Assembly: GCA_017548275.1 (NCBI GenBank)
Contig: JAFZAH010000010.1
Location: forward strand, 1-57,499
Reading direction: 5' to 3'
Length of the DNA: 57,499 nucleotides
DNA from: Prevotella sp.
Lineage (GTDB): Bacteria > Bacteroidota > Bacteroidia > Bacteroidales > Bacteroidaceae
This document shows positions 2,749-53,729 of this stretch, in pieces; within the stretch, counting starts at the first letter, position 1, and each line of letters begins with the position of its first letter. A program made the translations under genes and the position numbers. The notes under the pieces were generated by a model. It worked only from the letters and a program-made list of their open reading frames with translations, was not told the origin of the DNA and did not search any database.

Positions 2749-4350
2749 TCACGCCGTTTTTTTTATTTCCACGTCAAAGGACACGTCGCGCATCTGCTCG
2801 GGGATGTAGGAAAGGTAGTCAGGCTTTTCCGAATCACTTGGAGCATCTGCCCAATAACTGCGCGGGCGGTCATAATACTGCTGCATATTACACACATCTT
2901 TGTTGGCCCCGTCGATGAGGAAACCGCGGAAGGTGTCGAGGATGTCGATGAGCGAGCGGGCGGCATTGGCCGTCTGCTGGGCGAAGAGCGTGCCGCTGGT
3001 CACCGCCGATTCGCGCTTTCCCTGCAACACGCCCGACACGCCCGAAATATCCTCGAAGAAATCCAACTGGGTCTGCAACAGTTCCTTGATGCCGATATTC
3101 GTGGCATTGGTGGATATCTGCTGCGGCAACACCGAACCGGCACGCGCACGCACGGCAATGACCCCATTGAACCGCGCCCACTCCTCGGCAATGTCGTCGA
3201 GCGAATAACCGTCGGGGATGCATTCCTCGGGCACGAGCAGGATGCCCTTCGCCGACGAGCGCATCACCCAGTCGTAGAGCGAGATAAGGCGGTTGGTATA
3301 ACGCTGCTGGTCGATGACATCCGCCACAAACGAATGCACCTCGCCGTCGATGAAGGGATATGCCTTGAACACATACGGATGCTGTCCGTGGGCATAGGGT
3401 GAGGCACCCTCCTCAAGCACATCACCGAAGGGGGTGAGGAAATAGTAATGCCACTCCTCGTCGATGAACCACTCGGTGCGGATATGGTCCTTGCCGCCAA
3501 TCATCGTCTCATAGTTGGCGGCATCAATCTTATACACCTCTCCCGTCGAGGTGTCATGACAGATGAGCCGTTCGCGCTCCTCTTTGCGCCACACCTCCAC
3601 CACACGGCACAGACCGTCGGGGGACGTGTAGAAATCCTGATTCGGCGACGACTCGCCAAACGCCTGACACACCAGCGCTACACGCTCGAGATAGTCGGCA
3701 GGGGCGTAGATGGCACGCAGATGCTGGTAATCGGCGGCGCTGCGGGCGAAATCGCGGCACAAGGCCGAGAAGGGGATGTCGTGCAACTCGCCCAGGCACC
3801 GCACATCCCACCCACGGCAGTCGCGCATGGCACTGTCGATGAAGAAATGGTCGGGCATGACGCAGTCGGTCCAGCAGTCTGCCCTACCCTGTCGCACACC
3901 GAACGATTTGCGCTGCACTACCAGTCCGGAAATCAAAAACTCCTCCAGACTGCGCGCGTTCAGTTCCACACTGCGGTTGAGCCGTTGGTTGCTCTGCAAC
4001 GCTTTAGTCATCACCTTCGCCGCCATCCGGTCTTCGGGTTGGCACGCCGTGCAAGCCATCCGGTCATCGGCCTCACGGAAATGCCCGAGCACGTTCTTCA
4101 CCAACCTACGGATAAGGTTGTTTTTCAGCGGTTCATTACCCTGACGGCGGATATAATCCTCCTCCGTCATCCATTGACCGTCAACAAACACACGGTCTTT
4201 CCATTGGTCACCATAGGTATAACGCTTGCAACGCTCACGCTGCTTACGAAACTGCGCCATACCGTTCCAATAACGGGCGGCCTCCATCAGCAAGGAGCCT
4301 CCCACGGAGCCTCTCCCAAAGAGGGATTGTTCATTACTTGTCATTGTCAT
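2749..4350 (-). CDS. Phage portal protein, probably C-terminally truncated
   Basis: This 533-residue protein resembles P22-type portal proteins: a long N-terminal helical segment, a mid region with tyrosine- and tryptophan-rich strands, and a conserved stretch SxVLQGKRESAVTSGTLFAQQ before a helix where portals form the channel (about residues 445-475). Portals are needed for DNA entry into the capsid, and the gene follows a terminase on the same strand, 317 nt downstream. The protein stops soon after SFDVEIKK, where relatives as I remember them continue with a further domain. The codons before the stop contain a run of eight A, and a repeat element begins right after. I read it as a decayed 3' end, with moderate confidence. 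It starts with ATG. Confidence 0.7.
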   Translation of the reverse strand: MTMTSNEQSLFGRGSVGGSLLMEAARYWNGMAQFRKQRERCKRYTYGDQWKDRVFVDGQWMTEEDYIRRQGNEPLKNNLIRRLVKNVLGHFREADDRMACTACQPEDRMAAKVMTKALQSNQRLNRSVELNARSLEEFLISGLVVQRKSFGVRQGRADCWTDCVMPDHFFIDSAMRDCRGWDVRCLGELHDIPFSALCRDFARSAADYQHLRAIYAPADYLERVALVCQAFGESSPNQDFYTSPDGLCRVVEVWRKEERERLICHDTSTGEVYKIDAANYETMIGGKDHIRTEWFIDEEWHYYFLTPFGDVLEEGASPYAHGQHPYVFKAYPFIDGEVHSFVADVIDQQRYTNRLISLYDWVMRSSAKGILLVPEECIPDGYSLDDIAEEWARFNGVIAVRARAGSVLPQQISTNATNIGIKELLQTQLDFFEDISGVSGVLQGKRESAVTSGTLFAQQTANAARSLIDILDTFRGFLIDGANKDVCNMQQYYDRPRSYWADAPSDSEKPDYLSYIPEQMRDVSFDVEIKKTA

Positions 4351-4373
4351 AGTATAATAATTAATTGAACGTT

Positions 4374-4521
4374 AGGAAGTTATGATGGGGAGTTATAAAT
4401 GGAGTTAAAACGAGGAGTTAAGAAGAGCCAAATGTCTTTGAAACATTATTGTTTTGCTTGTTATTATGTAATGGCCCCTCATAACTCCACCTCATAACTC
4501 CACCTCATAACTCCCGAAACT
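4374..4521. repeat. GGAGTTA/TAACTCC palindromic element, copy 1
   Basis: The left arm holds four spaced AGTTA units (GGAAGTTATGATG, GGAGTTATAAAT, GGAGTTAAAACGA, GGAGTTAAGA). The core starts at AGAGCCAAATG and ends at AATGGCC. The right arm has three CCTCATAACTCCA units. Total length is 148 bp. The ATG of the portal gene lies 24 nt to its left, so on the sense strand TAACTCC units precede the start. Confidence 0.85.
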
Positions 4522-4550
4522 TCAGTAATTGATTGATGATTGTGTCTTCA

Positions 4551-4660
4551 GGTTTTAAGGTCCTTAAGGTCGCTAAGGTCCTTAAGGTCTTTAACGACCT
4601 TGTCGAAAACAGACTATTGTCCTTTAACTTCCTTAACTTCTTTAACTTCTTTAACTCCCC
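4551..4660. repeat. Nine-nucleotide arrays AAGGTCCTT and TTAACTTCC
   Basis: Four to five AAGGTCCTTA-like units are followed, after a spacer with ACAGACTATTGTC, by four CTTTAACTT units. The complement of the second block, including the AATAGTC segment, recurs at 18187-18240. Confidence 0.7.
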
Positions 4661-6818: not shown

Positions 6819-6944
6819 GATTGACTAACCTATATATAATTTCCGGTTGCGAAGATAATACATCACAACCGAAACAGAGTGGTATCCATTCAAGTCTGGG
6901 AAACCGAAAAAAGGAAAAAAACTGAAGGGGCGAAAAAAACGTAT

Positions 6945-6978
6945 ACGGGGAATCTGACTTTCACATCAGATTCCCCGT
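6945..6978 (-). terminator. Hairpin GGGGAATCTGA, copy 1 (probable terminator)
   Basis: A 13-bp perfect stem (ACGGGGAATCTGA with its complement) has an 8-nt loop CTTTCACA. On the minus strand it lies just after the stop of the 6993-7703 gene and is followed by ATACG and a T run, which fits an intrinsic terminator. The same hairpin recurs at 7813-7856. Confidence 0.75.
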
Positions 6979-7703: not shown

Positions 7704-7812
7704 CAGGATTATTTCTTATTATATTTGTTTCGATGTTGCAAAGATATAAAAAAGTAAGAAAAAGTACAAATAATCAACGTACTATTTTCACAATGGAAAA
7801 ACACAGAAATCA

Positions 7813-7856
7813 CTTTGACGGGGAATCTGACTTTCATATCAGATTCCCCGTCAAAG
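7813..7856 (-). terminator. Hairpin GGGGAATCTGA, copy 2 (probable terminator)
   Basis: A perfect 18-bp stem (CTTTGACGGGGAATCTGA and its complement) has loop CTTTCATA. It lies downstream of the transporter gene ending at 7941 and upstream of the gene starting at 7703. Stem core, loop sequence and orientation match the copy at 6945-6978. Confidence 0.75.
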
Positions 7857-7940: not shown

Positions 7941-9446
7941 TTACAGCATCTTCGCCGTACCCAAGAGATACAGCAGGCCATAACCGAGCAGCATGGTGAC
8001 GACACCCATGATGATGCCAATTTTCGCCATCTGTTTCTGTGTGACGAGATTGGTTGAGAATGCCAGCGCATTCGGGGGTGTGGAGATGGGCAGAATCATC
8101 GCGCTCGAAGCAGCCACAGCCACACCGATGAGTACGGTAGGCGTGCCGCCGATGGCTTCCAATTTGTCGCCCATGGCTGCGCATACCACTGTCAGGATGG
8201 GCATGAGCAGAGCCGCAGTGGCACTGTTGCTGATGAAATTGGAAAGCAGATAGCACAACAAACCCGACAGCACCAAAATCAATACAGGCGAGAAGTCACC
8301 GAAGGGGATGCTCTTCACCGCATTCTCGGCAAGTCCGGAACCGTTGAGCGCATAACCCAAGGCAAAACCGCCGGCAACCATCCACAGCACACTCCAGTTC
8401 AACTCCTCCAAATCGCGGCGATCGATGACACCGGTCATGGAGAACACCATGAAGGGAATGAGCGCCACTGTGTTACAGTTGATGCCGGTCAATGAGTCAG
8501 ACACCCACAACAACACGGTGATGATGAACGTGAAGATGACAATCTTTGTCTTCTTGTCTTTCTTCATCTTGCTCTCAATCTCCAGTTCCACGGTCTTCTG
8601 TGTGAAGGGGAACAACTTCGAGAGAATGCCCCAACTGATGAACAACAACACGATGACCAACGGGAACATAAACAGCATCCACTCGCCGAAGCCCAGTCCC
8701 ATATTCAGGCCTTCAGGGTCATTGAGGTATTTCAGTGCGATGTTGTTCGGCGGTGTGCCGATAGGTGTGCCCATGCCGCCCAAATTGGCTGCCACAGGAA
8801 TAGACAGGGCCATGGCGATGCGGCCCTTTCCCTCAGGAGGCAACTGACGGAACACCGGGGTCAGAAACGTGAGCATCATAGCCGCCGTGGCGGTGTTGCT
8901 GACAAACATCGAGAACAAACCCGTGATAAGGATGAAGCCCAACAACACACTGCTGCTTTTCGTGCCGAAGGGTTTGATCAGCACCTTCGCCAACTGCGAG
9001 TCAAGACCCGTCTTCGTGGCGGCAATGGCAAGGATAAATCCGCCGATAAACAACATGATGACGGGGTCGGCAAAAGACGCCATGATACTCTTATGAGAGA
9101 GCAACGTGCCCACTTCGTCAGGCTGAACCATCCATTTCAAACCGCTGTCGGACGTGAAAATCAATAACAGCACCATGATGGAGATGGATGTGGCCCAAGC
9201 CGGCACCACCTCAAACACCCACATGAGGGCGGCATACACGAAAATGGCCATGATACGCTGTTGCACCACCGTCAACCCCTCAATGCCGAAAGCCGACGCG
9301 GGCAGATTCCACACCACAAGGGTCAACAAGAGAATGATAACAGCCTGAATGGCCTTTTTCATCACATGATTGGGATGAAACCACTTGGTGAGGTTGGCAT
9401 GATGCAACGCCTCAACCATGTGATAACCATTAAAATTTTTAAACAT
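7941..9446 (-). CDS. SLC13/DASS-family anion symporter
   Basis: A 501-residue integral membrane protein with about 11-12 hydrophobic segments. It has both signature motifs of the divalent anion:Na+ symporter family: SNTATAA around residue 183 and, in the second half, SNSATAALLMP. Each is preceded by a hairpin-like hydrophobic stretch and followed by a Pro-rich turn (GTPIGTPPN). The family takes up dicarboxylates such as succinate, or sulfate, with sodium; the substrate cannot be read from the sequence. It is monocistronic, with a strong promoter box at 9497-9504 and a hairpin downstream (7813-7856). The ATG at 9446 is used, and a second Met at residue 29 is possible. Confidence 0.9.
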   Translation of the reverse strand: MFKNFNGYHMVEALHHANLTKWFHPNHVMKKAIQAVIILLLTLVVWNLPASAFGIEGLTVVQQRIMAIFVYAALMWVFEVVPAWATSISIMVLLLIFTSDSGLKWMVQPDEVGTLLSHKSIMASFADPVIMLFIGGFILAIAATKTGLDSQLAKVLIKPFGTKSSSVLLGFILITGLFSMFVSNTATAAMMLTFLTPVFRQLPPEGKGRIAMALSIPVAANLGGMGTPIGTPPNNIALKYLNDPEGLNMGLGFGEWMLFMFPLVIVLLFISWGILSKLFPFTQKTVELEIESKMKKDKKTKIVIFTFIITVLLWVSDSLTGINCNTVALIPFMVFSMTGVIDRRDLEELNWSVLWMVAGGFALGYALNGSGLAENAVKSIPFGDFSPVLILVLSGLLCYLLSNFISNSATAALLMPILTVVCAAMGDKLEAIGGTPTVLIGVAVAASSAMILPISTPPNALAFSTNLVTQKQMAKIGIIMGVVTMLLGYGLLYLLGTAKML

Positions 9447-12801: not shown

Positions 12802-13033
12802 TTCTTGTTTGTTCTTGCATTAAAATAATGTGCAAAATTAATGCAAAAAAAACAATCCGCCGAATAATTAACAGCAAATAACAAAATAGTATCAACAATC
12901 AACAAGAAAAGAACAGAATACAACTTTCGCAAGTGTCGCTTGCGATGTAGATAGAAGAAGATAAAAGACAAGAGTTCTTCTACAAAAATGCCGCAGGGCG
13001 TCAGCCAACTCCCCTCCCATGTAGGGGCGATTT

Positions 13034-13049
13034 AGTCCTTAAGCGGACA
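13034..13049. repeat. AGTCCTTAAGCGGACA mini-hairpin
   Basis: GTCC and GGAC enclose TTAAGC. The same unit, with a longer stem, is at 26821-26844, and a degenerate one is at 37530-37546. Confidence 0.5.
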
Positions 13050-13122
13050 AAATCTTCAAGAAGGGGTGGAACCAGTAATATTACCATAAGATTAAAATCT
13101 TCATACTCAACAATTTACAAAC

Positions 13123-16333: not shown

Positions 16334-16837
16334 TTAAACTCTTCCGGACTCTTCCGCCGCTCTGTCCATCCGGTTCTCTTCGTCGAATTCGGGATAGGTC
16401 ATGCGGGCGTGGTCTTGCAGGAAGATACGGTTGAGGGTGAACGCCAAGGACTGTAGGGTCTGTTCACGCCGTGGTTTGGACAATTCACATTCCCAGACGG
16501 TTAGGCAATGCCACCCCATCGCGGCCAACTGCTCTTGCACACGCTCGTCGCGTGTGCGGTTGCGCAGGATTTTCGCCTCCCAGAAGTCGGTGTTGGTTTT
16601 GGGAACGCGGTATGCCCCGCACCCCTCATGACCATGCCAGAAACAGCCGTTGACAAAGATACACGTGCGGTATTTCCGCAACACGAGGTCGGGATGACCC
16701 GGCAAACGCGGATTGTTCAACCGATAACGGAACCCCTGTCCGAAGAGATAACGGCGCACCAGCATCTCAGGGCGCGTATTCTTCGATTTCACCGCCGCCA
16801 TATTGCGGTGGCGCTGTTCAGGGGTTAGTTTGTCCAT
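16334..16837 (-). CDS. vsr: Very-short-patch repair endonuclease Vsr
   Basis: A 167-residue protein with the full Vsr pattern: MDKLTPEQRHRNMAAVKSKN at the start, GHPDLVL with the catalytic Asp at about residue 50, FVNGCFWHGHEGC (residues 61-73) with catalytic His and zinc-ligand Cys, and the LTVWECEL block near residue 130. Vsr nicks 5' of the T in T:G mismatches produced by deamination of 5-methylcytosine. The usual partner, a cytosine-5 methyltransferase, is not in the window, so it is an orphan here. The leader from the promoter at 17014 to the ATG would contain the entire palindromic element 16853-17006. Confidence 0.93.
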   Translation of the reverse strand: MDKLTPEQRHRNMAAVKSKNTRPEMLVRRYLFGQGFRYRLNNPRLPGHPDLVLRKYRTCIFVNGCFWHGHEGCGAYRVPKTNTDFWEAKILRNRTRDERVQEQLAAMGWHCLTVWECELSKPRREQTLQSLAFTLNRIFLQDHARMTYPEFDEENRMDRAAEESGRV

Positions 16838-16852
16838 ACAATCTGTTGTTTT

Positions 16853-17006
16853 AGGAGTTAAGAGGTGGAGTTAAGAGGTGGAGTTAAGAGGTGGAGTCAT
16901 GAGGAGCCATTACCTGTATGGGGGAGTAAAGACCTGTCACGGGAACATTTGGCTCATTTTAACTCCTCATCATAACTCCTCATTATAACTCCTCATTATA
17001 ACTCCT
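16853..17006. repeat. GGAGTTA/TAACTCC palindromic element, copy 2
   Basis: The left arm is three exact units of GGAGTTAAGAGGT plus GGAGTCATGA. The core is bounded by GGAGCCATTAC and AACATTTGGCTC. The right arm has three units of AACTCCTCATNAT plus a final AACTCC. At 154 bp it is the most regular of the three copies and lies between divergent promoters and the vsr start. Confidence 0.9.
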
Positions 17007-17105: not shown

Positions 17106-18173
17106 ATGATGAAAAAGATGATATTTGCCTGGCTGTTGTGCATGGCACTGCCCATGACTCTGGCTGCCGCTGCTACCCTGCCCCAATTGCGTTTCACCAC
17201 AGACGAGGCAAGATTGGAACAATACTATAATGAGACCAAAGCGGCCTATAATGATTCTGAGATAACGTTCATCTCCGACGATGCCAAAAAGGTGAAAGGC
17301 ACGGAGCGTGAACGCATGGTGCTACGCCTGATGCAATGCACCACTTATCTGCGCAGTAATAAAGGTTATACTCTCTTTGAATGGGCGCGACTGAACACGA
17401 AAATCATCCAAAATCAGTTTTTCAGAACCAAACGCGGCGAGACCGACATCGCTCACATCGAGCGGTTTGACGACGTGAAAAAAACGGCTGCCCACATCCT
17501 CGAAAGCATCGATGACATGAAAGCCGGCTCACAAATGGAGATGAACGGCTACTCCTATGCCGACAACATCGTCAGTGAATATCTCGCCGTGCTGAAAAGT
17601 TGGATGATTACAAACATAAAAACGCGCGATGAGAGGGGCAACGTTTCGCCTCTGTCTGTGCGGGCCAAGAAAGCCATTGAGGAAGAGAATGACGCATGGT
17701 GGAAACTGACAGAGGCGGCGGTGGATTATTACGACAAATGCGCTACCGACGGTGAATGGTACAGCATGAAACCGCTGGAATATGCTTGGGTAATAGAGAG
17801 GATGTGCACACGGCGCATCAACTCGCTCGACCTGACACTGGGGTATTACCTGCCGGGCTCTCCTGCCGCCGAGATGTTGAGGGCATACGGCAAAGAACCA
17901 CTCGATGAGGAGGAGACACCTCAACAGCACTTTCTGAGTCAGGGGAAAAAACTGATGGACGGGATTGCCGAATACGACACCGACGAACATTCAGAAGGTG
18001 CACGCGAGGCTGCCCTAAACCTACGTGAGGCATGGAAAGCATTCGTCAGTCGCTACAATAACACTGATTCTTTGGAAGAAAACTCATACGTCATCAACAG
18101 AGCCTTCGCCAATGACCTCAGCCTCTATATCGACACCCTCTTGAACATCAGCCAAGGACATGCATGGGAATAG
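17106..18173 (+). CDS. Secreted helical protein of unknown function
   Basis: A 355-residue protein starting MMKKMIFAWLLCMALPMTLA, a clear signal peptide. The mature part is rich in Glu, Lys and Ala, predicted mostly helical, with several Trp/Tyr positions (AWWKLTEAAVDYYDKC, DGEWYSMKPLEYAWVIERMC). It recalls periplasmic LprI-like helical domains, but no diagnostic motif supports that name. The start was chosen from the promoter at 17050-17081. The next gene is convergent, so this is a monocistronic unit. Confidence 0.8.
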   Translation: MMKKMIFAWLLCMALPMTLAAAATLPQLRFTTDEARLEQYYNETKAAYNDSEITFISDDAKKVKGTERERMVLRLMQCTTYLRSNKGYTLFEWARLNTKIIQNQFFRTKRGETDIAHIERFDDVKKTAAHILESIDDMKAGSQMEMNGYSYADNIVSEYLAVLKSWMITNIKTRDERGNVSPLSVRAKKAIEEENDAWWKLTEAAVDYYDKCATDGEWYSMKPLEYAWVIERMCTRRINSLDLTLGYYLPGSPAAEMLRAYGKEPLDEEETPQQHFLSQGKKLMDGIAEYDTDEHSEGAREAALNLREAWKAFVSRYNNTDSLEENSYVINRAFANDLSLYIDTLLNISQGHAWE

Positions 18174-18186
18174 GAGAAGGTCTGGT

Positions 18187-18240
18187 GATTAGGAGTTAAG
18201 GAAGTTAAAGGAGTTAAGGAAGTTAAAGCCAATAGTCTTA
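18187..18240 (+). repeat. GGAGTTAAGGAAGTTAAAG array
   Basis: Four 9-10-nt units (GGAGTTAAG, GAAGTTAAA, GGAGTTAAG, GAAGTTAAAG) are followed by CCAATAGTC. The complement occurs at 4597-4660. It lies just past the stop at 18173. Confidence 0.7.
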
Positions 18241-18969: not shown

Positions 18970-19008
18970 ATTAGGAGTTCAGGAGTTCAGGAGTTACAGT
19001 AGTTCAGA
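18970..19008. repeat. AGGAGTTC 8-nt array, copy 1
   Basis: Three AGGAGTTC-like units are followed by CAGTAGTTCAGACATTAG. The same array and ending are found at 35868-35906, where it is coding. Confidence 0.7.
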
Positions 19009-19084
19009 CATTAGCCCATTTGTTGGTATCCTCGCGACGCAAGAGGCGGGTACGGGCACCGGGGACAACCTCATTCCACATTCC

Positions 19085-19762: not shown

Positions 19763-19832
19763 ATATTGTAGGTTTGAGGTTTGAGATTTGAGGTTTTTGA
19801 TGGGAAGTTAAAGAAGTTAAGGAAGTTAAAGA
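19763..19832 (-). repeat. G-free repetitive leader of deoxynucleoside kinase 1
   Basis: The mRNA strand reads CTTTAACTTCC-type units, then AACCTCAAATCTCAAACCTC units, ending ACAATAT before the ATG. No G occurs in 70 nt. Confidence 0.8.
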
Positions 19833-19850
19833 CATTACTCCACTAATCAT

Positions 19851-26800: not shown

Positions 26801-26820
26801 AGAACTGCCCCTGTATGAAG

Positions 26821-26844
26821 ATATTGTCCTTAAGCGGACAATAT
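26821..26844. repeat. ATATTGTCC-TTAAGC-GGACAATAT hairpin
   Basis: A perfect 9-bp stem with a 6-nt loop, 20 nt after the yidC stop. Related units are at 13034-13049 and 37530-37546. Confidence 0.65.
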
Positions 26845-26945
26845 CGCCTCCAGAGGGAGGGAATCATTGGCAGGGGGGATTTAACGATAATCCGATTACA
26901 ACGACATATTTATTAACTATAAAACTCACCCTCAGACATACTACA

Positions 26946-34889: not shown

Positions 34890-35906
34890 TCAATGAAAAG
34901 ATAATCGTGTGGAGTCGCGCCCCACCTTGAGCACCGCCTGTGAGCCCACCACCATCGGGAAATTATTGAGGTGGGAATGGCCCGTGGGGAAGTCGTAACA
35001 CACCGGCACATCGGGATAACGGCTCATGTAAGTGTGTATCATGTGGTACATATCCTCAAACCCGTTCTCCGGTTTTTTGTATTTGGTGAACTTCCCCACA
35101 ATCAGCCCCCGCAGACGTCCGAGCACACCGCGCAATTCCATCAGATGAAGCATACGGTCCACATGGCTCATGTTCTCGCCCACATCCTCAATGAAAAGAA
35201 TGATGTCGGGCAGGGAGAGGATATCATACTGCGAACCCGCCAACCCGCATAAGACCGACATGTTGCCGCCTACGAGCGTGCCCCGCCCTGTGCCGGGATT
35301 GTTATATGGATTTCGCGGCACCACATATTCGGGCCACTGCCCCATGAGCACTCCATGCAAGGCACGGCTCACCGTGTCGGTCGCACCCTCATATCCCAGT
35401 GCCTCGCACATGCTGGCATGGACGCTCATCACCCCCGCGCGCGCCTCGGCACACAACAGGGCGGTGACATCACTGAAGCCGATAATCCATTTGGGATATT
35501 GGGCAAACGTATCTACGGGTATGCGGGCAAGCACATGAGGCGCACCGTCGCCGCCTCGGGTGGCGATAATCGCTTTGATGGAGGGGTCGCGCAGAGCCTG
35601 AAGCACATCGGCAGCCCGTTCCTCAGGTGTACCGCCATAACCATGCCATGACCGCAACACATTCGGCATCGGCACAGGTACCAATCCCCATTTCCGCAGA
35701 GCCACACACCCCGTATCAACCATGGCCTGCGTGGCTTTCCCCGATGGAGAGATAATCGCCACGCTGTCGCCGGGATGCAACAACGGCGGCATCCGAAACG
35801 TCTGTTGCGCCAAACTTACGAATGGCTGTAAGAAAAGAAAAAGGAAAAGCAAAACACCCCATCTCCGCAGGAGTTCAGGAGTTCGGAAGTTCAGGAGTTC
35901 AGACAT
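34890..35906 (-). CDS. LD-carboxypeptidase (peptidase family S66)
   Basis: A 338-residue exported peptidoglycan hydrolase. The S66 triad is visible: Ser145 in IIGFSDVTALL, Glu in FIEDVGENMSH, and His in FPTGHSHLNNFPM near the C-terminus. The N-terminal domain has GDSVAIISPSGKA. These enzymes remove the terminal D-Ala from murein tetrapeptides in cell-wall recycling; the family is often cytoplasmic, but here WGVLLFLFLFLQPFVSLAQQ forms a signal peptide. I use the ATG at 35906. The alternative upstream start is GTG. The n-region SELLNFRTPELLRR is encoded by an AGGAGTTC array. Confidence 0.92.
   Translation of the reverse strand: MSELLNFRTPELLRRWGVLLFLFLFLQPFVSLAQQTFRMPPLLHPGDSVAIISPSGKATQAMVDTGCVALRKWGLVPVPMPNVLRSWHGYGGTPEERAADVLQALRDPSIKAIIATRGGDGAPHVLARIPVDTFAQYPKWIIGFSDVTALLCAEARAGVMSVHASMCEALGYEGATDTVSRALHGVLMGQWPEYVVPRNPYNNPGTGRGTLVGGNMSVLCGLAGSQYDILSLPDIILFIEDVGENMSHVDRMLHLMELRGVLGRLRGLIVGKFTKYKKPENGFEDMYHMIHTYMSRYPDVPVCYDFPTGHSHLNNFPMVVGSQAVLKVGRDSTRLSFH
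35868..35906. repeat. AGGAGTTC 8-nt array, copy 2 (coding)
   Basis: AGGAGTTC, AGGAGTTC, GGAAGTTC and AGGAGTTC are followed by AGACATTAG. On the minus strand this includes the ATG and codes for the first 13 residues of the S66 peptidase. Copy 1 is at 18970-19008. Confidence 0.75.
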
Positions 35907-35950
35907 TAGTTTTCTATTTGAAATCCTCACAATGTAGGGGTGATGACTTT

Positions 35951-37410: not shown

Positions 37411-37621
37411 AAAACTTTTCCCGACATAAGAACCATATTTTTGAAAAAAGAACAGATTTTTATAGACATAAGGACAAAAGTACGTAATAATCAAGGAATT
37501 ATTAGGAGTGAAGGAGTGAAGACAAATGTACTCCTTTAGCGGACTAATTGTTCCCTTCGCACGAAACGTAGGGCGGCACACCTTCAAACTCAACCATCGC
37601 AATAGGACGGACTCCCCCCGC

Positions 37622-39379: not shown

Positions 39380-39790
39380 TTGAAAACAGTTTGTCCGAAA
39401 TGCAAGAAGAAACAACGCCCGCAAAATGTGTATTGCGAGCGCTGTGGGGCGTTGCTCCATCCGCAGCAGTTTTGCGAGAAATGCGGCACGTTGCAGCAAA
39501 ACGGCGAAAAGAAATGCAAGAAATGCGGCACGCCCTATCCCAAGACTGCGACGGGCATCATGGACAAACCTGTAAGATTGTGGAAGAGTGCGTTGGTGTT
39601 CTTTTTCATCATCGTGGCGCTGGGCACTTTCAGCCTGCTGAAGTCACGCAGCAACCGCCCCTATTCCGAACAACTGGAGCGGCAATACACCGAATGGCGC
39701 GACAGCATGAAACAAGTGCAAGCAAAGGCTGCCAAAACCTCTAAAAAAGGAAACACCAAACAGACAACAAAAAGGGGAAACAAGCGTTAA
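39380..39790 (+). CDS. Double zinc-ribbon membrane protein
   Basis: A 136-residue protein with four CxxC pairs in the first 52 residues (CPKCKKK, CERCG, CEKCG, CKKCG), i.e. two zinc ribbons. One transmembrane segment follows (about residues 68-86), then a basic helical tail (KAAKTSKKGNTKQTTKRGNKR end). No in-frame ATG precedes the first Cys, so the start is TTG at 39380, directly after a G-free leader. Function unknown. Its last codons fall inside the GGGAAAC hairpin 39767-39809. Confidence 0.78.
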   Translation: MKTVCPKCKKKQRPQNVYCERCGALLHPQQFCEKCGTLQQNGEKKCKKCGTPYPKTATGIMDKPVRLWKSALVFFFIIVALGTFSLLKSRSNRPYSEQLERQYTEWRDSMKQVQAKAAKTSKKGNTKQTTKRGNKR

Positions 39791-39809
39791 TGCTCGTTTC
39801 CCTTTTGTT
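39767..39809 (+). terminator. AAGGGAAAC hairpin, copy 1
   Basis: AACAAAAAGGGGAAACAAGC pairs with GCTCGTTTCCCTTTTGTT around GTTAAT, with one mismatch and one bulge. The 5' arm codes for the last residues of the zinc-ribbon protein. The same hairpin is at 42484-42527. Confidence 0.8.
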
Positions 39810-39815
39810 ATTATT

Positions 39816-42428: not shown

Positions 42429-42483
42429 ATTATCCCGAATTGGTCTGGACCAACTCGGGATAATGACATAAGGATTGAAGCGA

Positions 42484-42527
42484 CAAAAAAGGGAAACAAG
42501 CGTTAGGACTCGTTTCCCTTTTGTTTT
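42484..42527 (-). terminator. AAGGGAAAC hairpin, copy 2
   Basis: ACAAAAAAGGGAAACAAG and CTCGTTTCCCTTTTGTTTT pair around the GCGTTAGGA loop. On the minus strand it covers the last codons of the gene ending at 42503. Stem and loop GCGTTA match copy 1 at 39767-39809. Confidence 0.8.
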
Positions 42528-43618
42528 AATATCCTGGCTTTTCGTCTCAGGCGCCATTTGTAATACATGTGATACCACCGTGACACTGGGCGGCCCCAGA
42601 TGGTTTCGGAGGGGAACTGCCACGCGAAATGGAGGTTGCGGTATATCTCGACGAAATATTGCGTATAGACCGACAAGCCCTTGAAGTGATAACGGTCGTC
42701 GTGATGGCCGAAATTACCGGCCTTCATCACTTCGTCGAGCAGCATCCGTCCCACTTTCTCATTGGGTTTGACCAACAGATACCTCTCGTCGAGCCCCAAG
42801 GTATCGTGCAGCAGCCACATCAGTCCGGCGGCAAACTTATGCATGTTGAGCCGTTTGAGCAGTTGTTCGTCGGCGGCACGCTCCTCCTCGGTGAACCCAC
42901 GGCGCAGGAGGTAGTAATAATCGATGATCTGGCGCAGGCCTACCCCCTCGAAGAAGAAATGGTGCATGACATGCGACAGTTGGAAGATGCGGTTGAAACT
43001 GTCGGTCGGCACACAGATTTTCCCCGCTCCCTCGGGCAGGCTGACTATCTGGCGGAACTGTTCGGCCTTTACCTGCTCAAAGTATTTTTTCAGACGGCGC
43101 TCATAGAACAGATTGCCCATGAACGAAGGGATGATATGAATCTCTGTGACGGCATCATCGAATACGGGAAAATCGATGTGATGATACTCGATGCCTGATT
43201 CCGGCGATACCCTCATGACAAAACTCAACAACTCGTCGGTCGTGAGCGATGTCCACAAATCAATGTCACCCGAGGTGCGCATCATCGGGTCGGGATACAT
43301 CAGCGCGTTGCCCTGTCCTTTGAGCACACATGCCTTAATCCCGTCTTTCTTATAAAGCAGATAAGTGACTTTCGCCGAAGCCCGATTCAACTTGCGGTTG
43401 TCATTCACAATCTCCTCATTGGCACTGTACCACTCTATGATTTTGTACTTGTCGGGCCGTTCGGGTCTGCCCTCCAAGCGTTTCAATCCATGGTAGAGCA
43501 CCCCCACGATGGTCTGCTTCATGCCAAACTCCAAAAGCCCGTCCCAGTCCATCTCATCGAGATGCTCCGGCACAGGGCAATTGTCATCGAGTGAAAAACG
43601 GAGGAAAGAGAGAAACAT
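42503..43618 (-). CDS. Nucleotidyltransferase-fold protein (NTP_transf_5 type)
   Basis: A 371-residue protein. It has the block ACVLKGQGNALMYPDPMMRT then SGDIDLW at about residues 95-122, the GxxD-D pattern of the PF14907 nucleotidyltransferase-like family found in polysaccharide loci. Further His-rich helices follow (LSHVMHHFFFEGVGLRQIID). Its substrate is unknown. It lies at the downstream end of the glycan locus on the same strand. The upstream leader is a CTTGCCCC-type array (43622-43708), and the 3' end overlaps a hairpin. Confidence 0.85.
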   Translation of the reverse strand: MFLSFLRFSLDDNCPVPEHLDEMDWDGLLEFGMKQTIVGVLYHGLKRLEGRPERPDKYKIIEWYSANEEIVNDNRKLNRASAKVTYLLYKKDGIKACVLKGQGNALMYPDPMMRTSGDIDLWTSLTTDELLSFVMRVSPESGIEYHHIDFPVFDDAVTEIHIIPSFMGNLFYERRLKKYFEQVKAEQFRQIVSLPEGAGKICVPTDSFNRIFQLSHVMHHFFFEGVGLRQIIDYYYLLRRGFTEEERAADEQLLKRLNMHKFAAGLMWLLHDTLGLDERYLLVKPNEKVGRMLLDEVMKAGNFGHHDDRYHFKGLSVYTQYFVEIYRNLHFAWQFPSETIWGRPVSRWYHMYYKWRLRRKARILKQKGNES

Positions 43619-51418: not shown

Positions 51419-52478
51419 ACTCCGTTTGCCCTATTTTCGCCGCATATTCGGGGAAGGCAGATGGCCACATGCCCGGACCAACGATATTATAGACCTTCTT
51501 CGCCCCACCTATCAGGTAATAGTCCAAGAACATCTTGATATTTTCACCGTCGTCTGTCTGTCCGGCGGTATCGATATGCTTCACCTTTCCGGGAACAACA
51601 TACACATCGGGAATCTGGTGCTTAACATATTCAATAAACGTCATGCTGTCGGAGGCAATCATTATACGGTTGAGGGTTGATGGTTGAGGATTGATGGTTC
51701 TATGCACATCTCCAGTCTCACGTTCCTTGCTCTTTGCCCCTATAAACGTCTTTATTTCCTCCACTATTCGTTGCATATAAGGTTCGCGCTCCTTAACAGG
51801 CAACTCTGGGTTGATGGCCGTTTCGGTCTTATCGCCGAGCAGATTGAGGAAACGGGTGTGGATGACGATATAGTTTGTGCCTATCTCCCGCTGATGACGG
51901 TCGATGAACTCCTGCAGGTATGGCGTCGGGCGGAACAACTCATGATACAACTTGCCCCAATCATAATCCGTGCCAAAGCGCTCGTTGATTTTATCCAATG
52001 AGTTGTAGCCGTAATAGAAATGCGTCTGACGATGGCGGTCTTTCAACAATCGTGTTGGATGATAACATTCGCCATAGATAAACAACGGTCGCGATTGCGG
52101 GAAGTGCTCCACCAGTTCGCCATCTTTCAAACGCCAGTCATAATCACGAGGCTCCAAGTATTTTTCCAACGGGAAGGGATAGGTGAAATATATACGGAAT
52201 GCTTTGCCTTGTGCTTTTGCCACAGCATAGACGGATATCATTCCCTTCAACCGGTCGAACATACCCCCATGCCCCACCCTGCCATCAACGCGGAAGACGT
52301 ATAGAGGGGTTTGAGGTTTGAGGTTTGAGGTTTGAGGTTTTGGATTACTCGAGGCCCCTTGCCCCTTGCCCCTTGCCCCTTGCTCCTTGCTCCTTGCTCC
52401 TAAATAATACTTACATATCAACTTCGGCTCGCGCCAAAGAACATCATAAAGACGGACGAAGAATTGCCGGAAAGACAT
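51345..52478 (-). CDS. Putative glycosyltransferase with repeat-derived insertions
   Basis: A 377-residue protein. Conserved-looking blocks are VDGRVGHGGMFDRLKGMIS (64-82), a basic TRF motif in YIVIHTRFLNLLGD (203-216), IASDSMTFIEYV (273-284) and YLIGGAKKVYNIVGPG (321-336). These suggest a GT-B fold such as a fucosyltransferase, but I cannot name the family. Three stretches are clearly short-repeat arrays read in frame: residues 27-58 (SKEQGARGKGQGASSNPKPQ and on), 247-271 (GAKSKERETG to PSTLNRI) and about 358-366 (TIHNSQFTI). The stop lies 74 nt inside the start region of the next gene, probably because the last array moved it. The protein may be impaired. Confidence 0.7.
   Translation of the reverse strand: MSFRQFFVRLYDVLWREPKLICKYYLGARSKEQGARGKGQGASSNPKPQTSNLKPQTPLYVFRVDGRVGHGGMFDRLKGMISVYAVAKAQGKAFRIYFTYPFPLEKYLEPRDYDWRLKDGELVEHFPQSRPLFIYGECYHPTRLLKDRHRQTHFYYGYNSLDKINERFGTDYDWGKLYHELFRPTPYLQEFIDRHQREIGTNYIVIHTRFLNLLGDKTETAINPELPVKEREPYMQRIVEEIKTFIGAKSKERETGDVHRTINPQPSTLNRIMIASDSMTFIEYVKHQIPDVYVVPGKVKHIDTAGQTDDGENIKMFLDYYLIGGAKKVYNIVGPGMWPSAFPEYAAKIGQTEFERITIHNSQFTIEPSDFHHYPRL
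51379..51412. repeat. GAATTGT array across a gene junction
   Basis: AATTGTGAATTGTGAATTATG-like units, four in total, lie where the ends of two glycosyltransferase genes overlap. They are read as HNSQ in both. Confidence 0.75.
51666..51740. repeat. Coding array GGTTGAGGGTTGATGG plus CCTTGCTCTTTGCCCC
   Basis: Two array types are adjacent, both in frame in the 51345-52478 gene (residues 247-271). Confidence 0.75.
52305..52402. repeat. Coding arrays TTTGAGG x4 and TTGCCCC/TTGCTCC x6
   Basis: Four 7-nt TTTGAGG units are followed, after a short spacer, by about six 7-nt TTGCCCC/TTGCTCC units. Both are in frame in the 51345-52478 gene (residues 27-58). The second type recurs at 19926-19972 and 43622-43708; the first recurs before 19762. 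Confidence 0.85.
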
Positions 52479-52504
52479 CTATTGAATAATTAACTATAGT
52501 TTCT

Positions 52505-52655
52505 GGAGTTATGAGGGGGAGTTAATAATAGGAGTTATGAGGGGGAGTTATAAAGAGCCATCACTAAATAATGTGCATAAAGCCTTGTAAAGGGTGCATT
52601 TGGCTCTTCTTAACTCCTCTTTTTAACTCCAACAAATAACTCCTCATCATAACTT
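52505..52655. repeat. GGAGTTA/TAACTCC palindromic element, copy 3
   Basis: The left arm is GGAGTTATGAGGG, GGAGTTAATAATA, GGAGTTATGAGGG and GGAGTTATAA. The core runs from AGAGCCATC to CATTTGGCTCTT. The right arm is TAACTCCTCTTTT, TAACTCCAACAAA, TAACTCCTCATCA and TAACTTC. It is 151 bp and separates an acyltransferase gene from the glycosyltransferase starting at 52478. Confidence 0.88.
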
Positions 52656-52670
52656 CAGAAAAATAAACAA

Positions 52671-53729
52671 TTAATTCTTTATCGGAGAGAACTTCACCAA
52701 CCACCAACGATGATAAAGAAACGCCGCGATGACAGTGAAGAGAGAAAAAATGAGGAGTTCTGTATGCGGTGCGCTCACAAAATGGAGTTTGGCAAAACAG
52801 ATAGCCCTTGTCGTGGGATGTATTACAAACAATGCCGCAGAAATGCCTCCCAGCCATTGGAACGGCTTTGACAACAACCGTGGCATGACTTTCACCAGAC
52901 ATAACGAAAACACGACGACGAAAACTGGTGCCACTGACCATAACACGAGATTCACATTAGAGAAAAAGAGCAACACTCCGCTGACAGCACCAGCAATGAG
53001 CAGGTATGGTGTTTTTATATAGTTTGACAAACGTTTCCCGTAAAGCGCTGCTGTCACGCCCATCGTAAACGGCAACATACCTATAAAGAAATTATCACGT
53101 AGCAACCTGACAACATCACTGTCGGGAGCAAATACGAACTGGGGCATCAAAGAGACAACGGTCATCACCGACAGAACAGTAACGATTTGCCTATTGCTTT
53201 GTGCCCGATAAACCAGCAGATAAAACAGCAGGTACATCTGCATCGTCAGTCCGAAATACCAATAGGGTTTTGGCCAAATATCAATACTAAAGAAATTGTT
53301 GGTCATGGTCAGCATCGACAACCAATCAAGTACTCCTCCCGAAAATGACTTCGTTCCGACGAAAATCACCACTTGGTACAACACGTATCCTCCCACCAAC
53401 AACCACAGCAGTTTCTTGTAATGACGCCAAACGAAGGGCAAGAATGCTATCGATTCCGTATTTTGCAATTTATATTTTACTGTTAGTCCGTATCCGGTCA
53501 AAAACAAGAACACACAAATGCCGTAATGTCCGAAGAATGAGAAGAATTGAAGGAAAGCATTGCCGTCGGGATGAAATGCATAGGCATAAAATGCATCGCT
53601 CCGCTCCTGCACAAAAGTCAGTTCATTCTCCATCAATGCCCCCTCCAACCAATGACAGTAGTTGTGCAGCAAGATGGCTAAAATACCCATGCCTCGCAAT
53701 ATGGTACATTCATTTTTGGAGAGTGGCAT
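52671..53729 (-). CDS. Acyltransferase-3 family membrane protein (1)
   Basis: A 352-residue protein with about 10 transmembrane segments. The N-terminus LRGMGILAILLHNYCHW has the conserved His of the RGxAxxxVxxxH motif, and FGHYGICVFLFLTGYGLTVKY is the second block. Members O-acetylate sugars or other envelope molecules. It is the downstream member of three such genes on the minus strand, and the palindromic element lies between it and the glycosyltransferases. Confidence 0.88.
   Translation of the reverse strand: MPLSKNECTILRGMGILAILLHNYCHWLEGALMENELTFVQERSDAFYAYAFHPDGNAFLQFFSFFGHYGICVFLFLTGYGLTVKYKLQNTESIAFLPFVWRHYKKLLWLLVGGYVLYQVVIFVGTKSFSGGVLDWLSMLTMTNNFFSIDIWPKPYWYFGLTMQMYLLFYLLVYRAQSNRQIVTVLSVMTVVSLMPQFVFAPDSDVVRLLRDNFFIGMLPFTMGVTAALYGKRLSNYIKTPYLLIAGAVSGVLLFFSNVNLVLWSVAPVFVVVFSLCLVKVMPRLLSKPFQWLGGISAALFVIHPTTRAICFAKLHFVSAPHTELLIFSLFTVIAAFLYHRWWLVKFSPIKN

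Follow-up and report, generated by a model that had tools for sequence, protein, structure and literature searches.

Three palindromes in one contig

Are the palindromes that recur at three places in this Prevotella contig copies of a mobile element, or are they kept where they stand for gene control or for their folding? The window, meaning the whole stretch of 57,499 nucleotides analysed here, is one entire contig (C6) of the source genome (G000; assembly of 3.22 Mb, 87% complete). Other genomes, and the loci read in any genome, carry our own G and L numbers.

Copy 1 (4369–4525, reverse strand) is a complete tandem-armed palindromic MITE, with a terminal repeat, arms of ~13-nt period, the heads GAGCCAAATG/GTAATGGCC and a variable core. 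It is bordered by a target-site duplication, TAATTGA, at 4362–4368 on the left and 4526–4532 on the right, recognized from the sequence, from comparison of the flanks and from the syntenic locus of the relative G328, which reads CATAGTAATTGATTG in that place and lacks the element. Copy 2 (16853–17006, forward strand) was assigned to the same family by alignment to copy 1, and no target duplication was found for it. It sits between a divergent vsr mismatch endonuclease gene (16334–16837, reverse strand), which it adjoins, and 17106–18173 (forward strand). Copy 3 (52493–52668, forward strand), of the same family, has a left terminal repeat ACTATAGTTTC at 52493 and a weak duplication, AATTAA; its right end is uncertain (52657–52668). 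An earlier note, made from the sequence alone, had placed all three palindromes correctly, with the true ends lying slightly outside its intervals (4369–4525 being best for copy 1).

The build described in that note, a left arm of GGAGTTA units, a bounded core and a right arm of TAACTCC units, was present in all three palindromes when the sequence was read directly. Copy 1 is indeed turned, its reverse complement aligning with copies 2 and 3; in this alignment the core ends and the arms match across the three copies, and the middle is divergent. GGAGTTAT occurred 13 times in the window against a shuffle mean of 1.35, with 13 or more in none of 100 shuffles. Genome-wide, the unit pair TAACTCCN6TAACTCC had 90 matches and its reversed control one. 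These two comparisons rule out chance or low complexity.

The palindromes encode no protein, as had been proposed: no ORF of at least 100 aa is contained in any window copy, although one from a mechanical ORF list (52564–52941, reverse strand) runs into copy 3. The –33/–7 boxes are promoter elements of Bacteroidota; by eye the cores held no consistent match to them, and a promoter core was rejected.

Predicted single-strand folding of each copy was stronger than that of all its 200 shuffles (z = −8.4, −3.7 and −10.5 for copies 1, 2 and 3; the folded sequence of copies 2 and 3 stopped a few bases short of the end). Shifting the arms by one 13-nt unit left 30–31 of 44 matches in copies 2 and 3, compared with 42 and 44 of 57 in register, and 22–24 of 41–42 in copy 1, compared with 31 of 54. 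The matched part of the overlap is then ~70% in copies 2 and 3 and ~55% in copy 1, which on paper would allow the arms to pair in more than one register. The sliding hairpin suggested earlier is possible in the same sense, from the arithmetic of matches.

Several other features of the window were recorded. Copy 1 adjoins a gene (2749–4350) matching the Pfam P22-type phage portal family. Two more tandem arrays, of GGTTTGA and GCCCCTT with 7-nt periods, adjoin copy 3 (52308–52401); they are likely intergenic if the neighboring gene starts at 52262, where a simple gene caller put it, and not at 52478. Two pairs of duplicated short hairpins (39767–39814 and 42483–42530, 88% alike; 6934–6978 and 7807–7851, 87% alike) look like repeated terminators. 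A dispersed short palindrome around CCTTAAGCGGAC has three copies (13029–13054, 26820–26845 and 37525–37550).

Copies, target duplications and empty loci

The family is much larger than the three copies first counted, with at least 31 loci in the 3.2-Mb genome. The unit-pair matches were grouped by hand into 32 clusters, and L034 and L041 were merged as one copy on overlapping contig ends (overlap checked). The figure is a lower bound, missing eroded copies that lack an exact unit pair, such as an array in L126 at 5681. Nineteen loci were two-armed, some of them eroded (e.g., L037 and L040), and twelve were one-armed (L031, L032 twice, L033, L036, L039, L043, L045, L046, L048, L050 and L054). 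The canonical order is a terminal repeat, three to four units of GGAGTTA N6, GAGCCATTAC, the variable core, CATTTGGCTC, three to four units of TAACTCC N6 and a terminal repeat, giving a two-armed element of ~150–175 bp. Short, non-coding, multi-copy and dispersed, the family has the general properties of MITEs.

Two copies at unrelated loci, L047 and L053a, shared 94.8% identity over 173 bp, and their 860-bp flanks gave no BLASTN match to one another. The flank pairs that did match were the right flank of L053a and the left flank of L053b, which are the same stretch, and short repeats common to the flanks of L055 and copy 3, within L051, and of L051 and L053b.

Target duplications were assessed from the longest word common to the two flanks of an element. 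For 18 of the 19 two-armed copies (L035, at a contig end, was dropped) this word had a mean of 5.78 nt in a copy's own flanks and 4.70 nt in crossed flanks, a difference with p = 6e-5 by permutation. Taken separately, the nine copies with the best ends gave p = 0.0026 and the other nine p = 0.09. For 22 terminal-repeat pairs, which include an insertion sequence (L172), MITEs of 106–463 bp without such arms, and tandem-armed elements, a flank match of at least 7 nt was found in 10 of 22, compared with 3.5% of crossed pairs, and none of 20,000 permutations reached the observed sum. Own-flank matches included ATAGTTTA (L042a), AATAAATGAC (L055), AAAAATA (L053b), AAATAGA (L056) and, for copy 1, TCAATTA, the reverse strand of TAATTGA. 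AAGTTAA in the flanks of L053a is arm-like and probably not a duplication. Where seen, duplications varied in length, mostly between 6 and 10 nt; they were above chance overall, with a common word of at most 4 nt in 6 of the 18 copies (copy 2, L034, L037, L040, L042b and L047).

Two loci lacked the element in G328. We compared a 2.4-kb stretch around L055 with 398 genomes of the genus, and 375 of them gave some match. G328 had both flanks in order (87% and 84% identity) with 20 nt between them, compared with 183 in the source genome; there GTCATTTATT stands on both sides of the element, which is absent from G328. At the copy 1 locus the G328 flanks were also in order (88% and 86%), and the gap was 123 nt as against 315, with no arms; the corresponding gaps in G386 and G245 had no arms either. 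At the copy 2 locus the G328 gap was 152 nt and had no arms, and it could not be aligned base to base. The halves of L032 met a differing gene order or no match in G328, G386 and G245. The exact unit pair was absent from G328 (67% complete) and from G245. The earlier note would have given up mobility had the family been confined to three copies without empty sites; at least 31 loci and two empty ones were found. Of its wording "actively maintained", these data bear out recent spread and nothing beyond it.

Terminal repeats and an IS4-family transposase

The outer 16–18 bp of the elements form a terminal repeat that is plain to the eye in about half the copies and reads CTGAAGTTTCGGGAGTTATG in the best of them. 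The outer ends, CTGAAGTTTCGGGAGT, agree in 14 of 16 bases with both ends of an IS4-family insertion sequence of the genus. In the source genome, AAGTTTCNGGAGTTATGA with up to two mismatches had nine matches at eight element copies, and the control one.

We searched 150 genomes of the genus for CTGAASTTTCGGAAGT with at most one mismatch. Matches occurred in 51, single matches being at the level of the reversed control, which never exceeded four per genome; the source genome itself had three against three in the control, i.e., no excess. Five or more matches were found in twelve genomes (G002, G015, G044, G046, G061, G065, G088, G095, G096, G103, G146 and G151), most of all in G065 (67), G103 (59) and G096 (20). 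In G096 we found a 1.6-kb element (L172) whose 16-bp ends are identical and whose flanks carry the 8-nt duplication TTAGGTAA. It encodes a transposase of 479 aa, which scored 374 bits on the IS4-family model NF049925 of NCBIfam (cut-off 250), stayed below the cut-offs of the IS701 models, and matched Pfam DDE_5 and DDE_Tnp_1 above cut-off. Near its C-terminus there is a Y-R-E-K arrangement, which we take to fit the IS4 signature.

Relatives of the transposase were present in 29 of the 150 genomes, and in four of the twelve end-rich ones (G065, G096, G103 and G146); the matches in G065 and G146 are fragments and that in G103 has 32% identity. Draft assemblies may hide multi-copy insertion sequences in end-rich genomes without a transposase match. 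Around the 29 transposase loci, among which L323 is the L172 element again, the end was found exactly in 13 and within one substitution in 19, compared with 0 and 1 on the reversed sequences; its position relative to the gene was checked for a subset of these loci. The one-substitution test was used since two substitutions were too loose (19 of 29 against 8 of 29 reversed). No such end was found at L331–L334, whose transposases have 32–35% identity.

Nearest to the palindromic element was L326 in G043, with full ends TTTAAGTTTCGGGAGTTCC and TTGAAGTTTCGGGTGTTAAT; within these, TTTAAGTTTCGGGAGT and TTGAAGTTTCGGGTGT each share 14 of 16 bases with copy 1. The source genome has two transposase relatives, L189 (C11, 43293–43664) and L190 (C13, 20946–21281), of 69 and 71% identity. 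Both are fragments that stop at contig ends, which is what the collapse of a multi-copy insertion sequence in assembly would give, and the assembly contains no intact IS4 copy with the same ends. Both begin CTAAAGTTTCGCAAGTGAATATTC, in which CTAAAGTTTCGCAAGT shares 13 of 16 bases with the element end. The palindromes share their terminal inverted repeats with an autonomous insertion sequence, at 14 of 16 bases for L326 in another genome and 13 of 16 for the genome's own truncated relative.

By copy number, near-identical dispersed copies, target duplications above chance in AT-rich intergenic DNA, empty loci in a relative and IS4-like terminal repeats, the two-armed copies are MITEs, and the mobile, MITE-like nature proposed in the earlier note is upheld. 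We put at about 85% the probability that they form a non-autonomous family mobilised by an IS4-type transposase acting in trans, a reading drawn from sequence comparison in which the trans step is the conjectural part. Several results weigh against it: the source genome has no assembled intact partner and no excess of the general end pattern, few end-rich genomes have a transposase match, and a part of the copies have no clear terminal repeat or flank duplication. The outer repeat would be a terminal inverted repeat such as IS4-family insertion sequences have at their ends. A transposase supplied in trans would excise the element and insert it into intergenic DNA. The inner part of the repeat, GGAGTTA plus spacer, may have been amplified in tandem into arms of three to four units, as their resemblance suggests; such arms would perhaps offer several transposase-binding or pairing registers. 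The one-armed copies would be, at least in part, older and of another history.

Other MITE-like elements carry the same terminal repeat: L174, L183, L175 and L185 (in G095, G103 and G146) and L173, L161 and L176 (in G065). They include elements of ~250 bp with CACAGAG/TAAAGAG repeats and one of 463 bp in G065. Many of the terminal-repeat matches in G065 lie near contig ends.

Single arrays, related palindromes and known elements

The window also contains five single arrays that share the core-end motif with the palindromes and have no second arm. They lie at 4614–4658 (forward strand; head CTATTGTC, 9-nt period) and, on the reverse strand, at 18192–18235 (head CTATTGGC, 9-nt period), 18974–19014 (head CTAATGTC, 8-nt period), 19804–19838 (head GTAATGTC, 9-nt period) and 35870–35909 (head CTAATGTC, 8-nt period). 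The array at 18192–18235 has four units; its counterpart at the corresponding position in G328 has one that is clear and one that is eroded.

Core-end motifs border tandem arrays of differing spacing (periods of 8, 9, 10 or 13 nt) on their inner side, clearly in the source genome and G069, more weakly in G245, and not in G061; palindromes in which no IS4-type ends were detected are among these arrays. In a 457-kb sample of the source genome, the head [CG]TA[AT]TG[GT]C had a density of 0.58/kb in intergenic and 0.17/kb in genic DNA. The 45 nt after it were periodic for 23 of 54 intergenic heads and the 45 nt before it for 2 of 54, with an intergenic background of 3%; for six scrambled motifs the corresponding figures were 1 and 3 of 99. 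The other head, CATTTG[GT]C, was followed by periodic sequence in 3 of 13 cases. In G069 (220 kb) the first head gave 8 of 27 after and 2 before, and CATTTG[GT]C 8 of 29 after and 4 before, at 0.51/kb intergenic against 0.02/kb genic; scrambled motifs gave 1 of 89. In G245 (180 kb) the first head gave 5 of 12 after, at least one of the five being another kind of array, and 2 before; CATTTG[GT]C gave 0 of 6 and scrambled motifs 1 of 37. G061 (400 kb) had no link between head and array, with 0 of 18 and 1 of 8. Arrays of at least three units numbered 26 with the first head and 4 with the CATTTG head in the sample of the source genome, a count made without a control and including the two-armed copies. 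Extrapolated by length, there would be ~180 first-head arrays in the genome.

Both the head motif and the one-armed arrays are genuine, and in part they are old. Two accounts of the one-armed copies were rejected. They are not the two ends of one long transposon, as the halves read do not pair in orientation. Nor are the arrays 5′ leaders only, which is true of seven left-head copies of the 13-nt class and not of all arrays (14 of 22 facing a start). A wider reading, which we offer tentatively and think rather unlikely to hold as a whole, is that the IS4-ended palindromes are one captured form of a Prevotella element in which a head, STAWTGKC on one side or CATTTGKC on the other, anchors a tandem array of CTYC-ending units at 8, 9, 10 or 13 nt. 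In some species a genome would have such elements at well over 100 sites near gene boundaries; they would gain and lose units where they stand and pair head-to-head into palindromes, and a protein or RNA process would recognise the head and the spacing, not the letters of the array.

The single arrays also bear on a regulatory reading, by which TAACTCC-type arrays in 5′ untranslated regions or as operators are host elements kept for gene control. All seven left-head one-armed copies of the 13-nt class (L031, the first in L032, L039, L045, L046, L048 and L050) face an ATG and end 10–28 nt before it. These ATGs open frames of 140–474 aa, and six of the seven genes have a Pfam match above cut-off, e.g., rRNA adenine dimethylase and nitroreductases. 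In the arm-agnostic sample 17 of 22 arrays lay on the side of the closer gene boundary (p = 0.017), and one single array, as described above, is in the same place in G328. However, the same sample faced a start in 14 cases and a stop in 8, and at least 4 of the 19 two-armed copies (L037, L049, L053a and L056) lie between convergent ORFs, as judged from a greedy ORF list that, like the gene starts of the simple caller, is unreliable at single loci. The recent insertion of two-armed copies also misfits old regulation. We regard gene control as an unlikely explanation of the palindromes.

Palindromes of this build occur in other genomes. In an even draw of 100 genomes of the genus, source genome included, twelve had the unit pair, six of them with three or more matches (G000 90, G096 16, G103 8, G015 7, G069 4 and G114 3). 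Two of twelve chosen relatives had it as well (G386 27 and G253 1). No two-armed palindrome of the 13-nt class was seen in the 14 G386 loci read; in one of the G386 loci, L236, the array is faced by another of a different kind. Named genomes, from which the source genome may have been left out, were scanned as well and gave 32 stretches in Prevotella and in Bacteroidaceae/Prevotellaceae MAGs. Several of these come from water buffalo, sheep, goat and red deer, and the unit pair was also present in Prevotella sp. P2-180 and P3-122. Many of the stretches show the whole palindrome, alike in ends, arms and heads, and others are one-armed. The head pattern GACAATAG-N15-45-CATTTGTC matched in 17 of 100 genomes of the genus (reversed control, 2 in total), with most matches in G081 (13), G061 (8), G069 (7) and G004 (4). 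Reading one strand at 11 of 30 loci, we found GGAGTTA-type arms on both sides in L084, L101, L102, L108, L110 and L112, on one side in L098, and on neither in L085, L090, L092 and L104. G069, G004 and G081 have palindromes built in this way but no match to the end pattern CTGAASTTTCGGAAGT, so a claim of IS4 movement does not extend to this wider class.

Two side observations were made. L076 and L112 (G069) and L108 (G004) are near-perfect palindromes with the same kind of heads and closely matching arms, in which no IS4-type ends were found. A GC-rich insert of ~20 nt (TCGCT..CGCT, e.g., TTCGCTTCGCTCATGG) recurs inside arms in several species (L131 at 8761–8803, L084, L064, L098, L095, L099 and L154).

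The likeness of the arms bears on a local origin, in which template switching turns a single head-plus-array into a palindrome and slippage grows the arrays. We compared copies fitting the exact head pattern (7 in the source genome, 6 in RGIG7581, 3 in G061, 2 in G081, 5 in G069 and 2 in G004). In the first four genomes the same arm was better conserved between copies (0.76–0.97) than were the two arms of one copy (0.44–0.67); the values for the source genome were 0.76–0.78 and 0.67. G069 was reversed, with 0.86 within a copy (two of the five at 0.97–1.0) compared with 0.73 and 0.80 across copies, and G004 was mixed. The G069 result, with no end-pattern match there, and the differing unit number at the orthologous array in G328 speak for local making. 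Against it stand the four genomes with better conservation across copies, and the duplications and empty loci of the source genome, and we consider it quite improbable for the copies described here. Still less probable is a structural hairpin, REP- or terminator-like and valued as RNA or DNA between genes: it would fit the strong predicted folding and the placement in convergent, tandem and divergent settings, but no Rfam family reached the gathering cut-off anywhere in the window, no GTAG/CGTC REP tag was seen by eye, and in the source genome the same arm is more alike across copies than are the two arms of one copy, which indicates copying and not a pairing constraint.

The preferred reading, a MITE family moved by an IS4-type transposase, has partial precedents. 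The earlier note knew of no described element of this form; our searches of open-licence literature gave no description of these tandem-armed palindromes, but a relative in general form exists. BrickBuilt of Porphyromonas gingivalis is, in the part of its description available to us, an intergenic non-coding MITE in 19 copies with a minisatellite inside (PMC4596501). It resembles the present family in its IS-like terminal repeats, in the minisatellite within a MITE and in uneven duplication length, and differs, on the same partial text, in having a single array of 23-nt repeats inside, with leader and tail on either side of it, in its IS5-type ends and in its length of 84–991 nt (PMC4596501). 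The elements here have two inverted end arrays of 13-nt period, IS4-type ends and a palindromic build of 150–175 bp overall, and so do not belong to BrickBuilt. TAACTGA repeats are described, in the portion seen, as intergenic tandem heptamers of Bacteroidetes and other groups, often near start codons, with a gene-control role suggested for those of Beggiatoaceae (PMC4679880). They are another heptamer, arranged head to tail, and appear in that portion without inverted partner, heads or terminal repeats (PMC4679880); the heptamer here is TAACTCC with 6-nt spacers, yet the seven left-head one-armed copies all face a start. PINSR of Prevotella intermedia and P. nigrescens, according to the sections available, is a 188-bp intergenic repeat in 177–184 copies, restricted to Prevotella and held to be non-coding, about three-quarters of whose regions are conserved between two strains; its authors describe it as lacking terminal inverted repeats and distinguish it from MITEs (PMC4755523). 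Described REPs carry a GTAG/CGTC tag, as far as the text seen goes (PMC3733652).

IS4-family insertion sequences (NF049925) share with the palindromes the terminal repeats, CTGAACTTTCGCAAGT in L172 or TTTAAGTTTCGGGAGT in L326, and have an 8-nt duplication in L172, but the palindromes have no transposase gene. REP elements mobilised by RAYT are palindromes of 20–40 bp linked to a RAYT gene, a size that argues against membership here. Foldback elements of eukaryotes have long inverted repeats built of tandem subrepeats; this likeness stands beside differences in length (they are longer), host and transposases. The arms of the present family look like minisatellites grown from the terminal repeat, and being tandem-built they would make it a new variant among MITEs.

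If this reading is right, it links one class of palindromes between genes of gut and rumen Prevotella to a named transposase family, so that their mobility would be testable with a single transposase gene and a marked element. The family would also be a bacterial example of terminal repeats that seem to have grown into minisatellite arms. The head-anchored arrays point to a pattern at gene boundaries in a common gut genus, and since such repeats lie at contig ends in several assemblies, they matter for reading these genomes.
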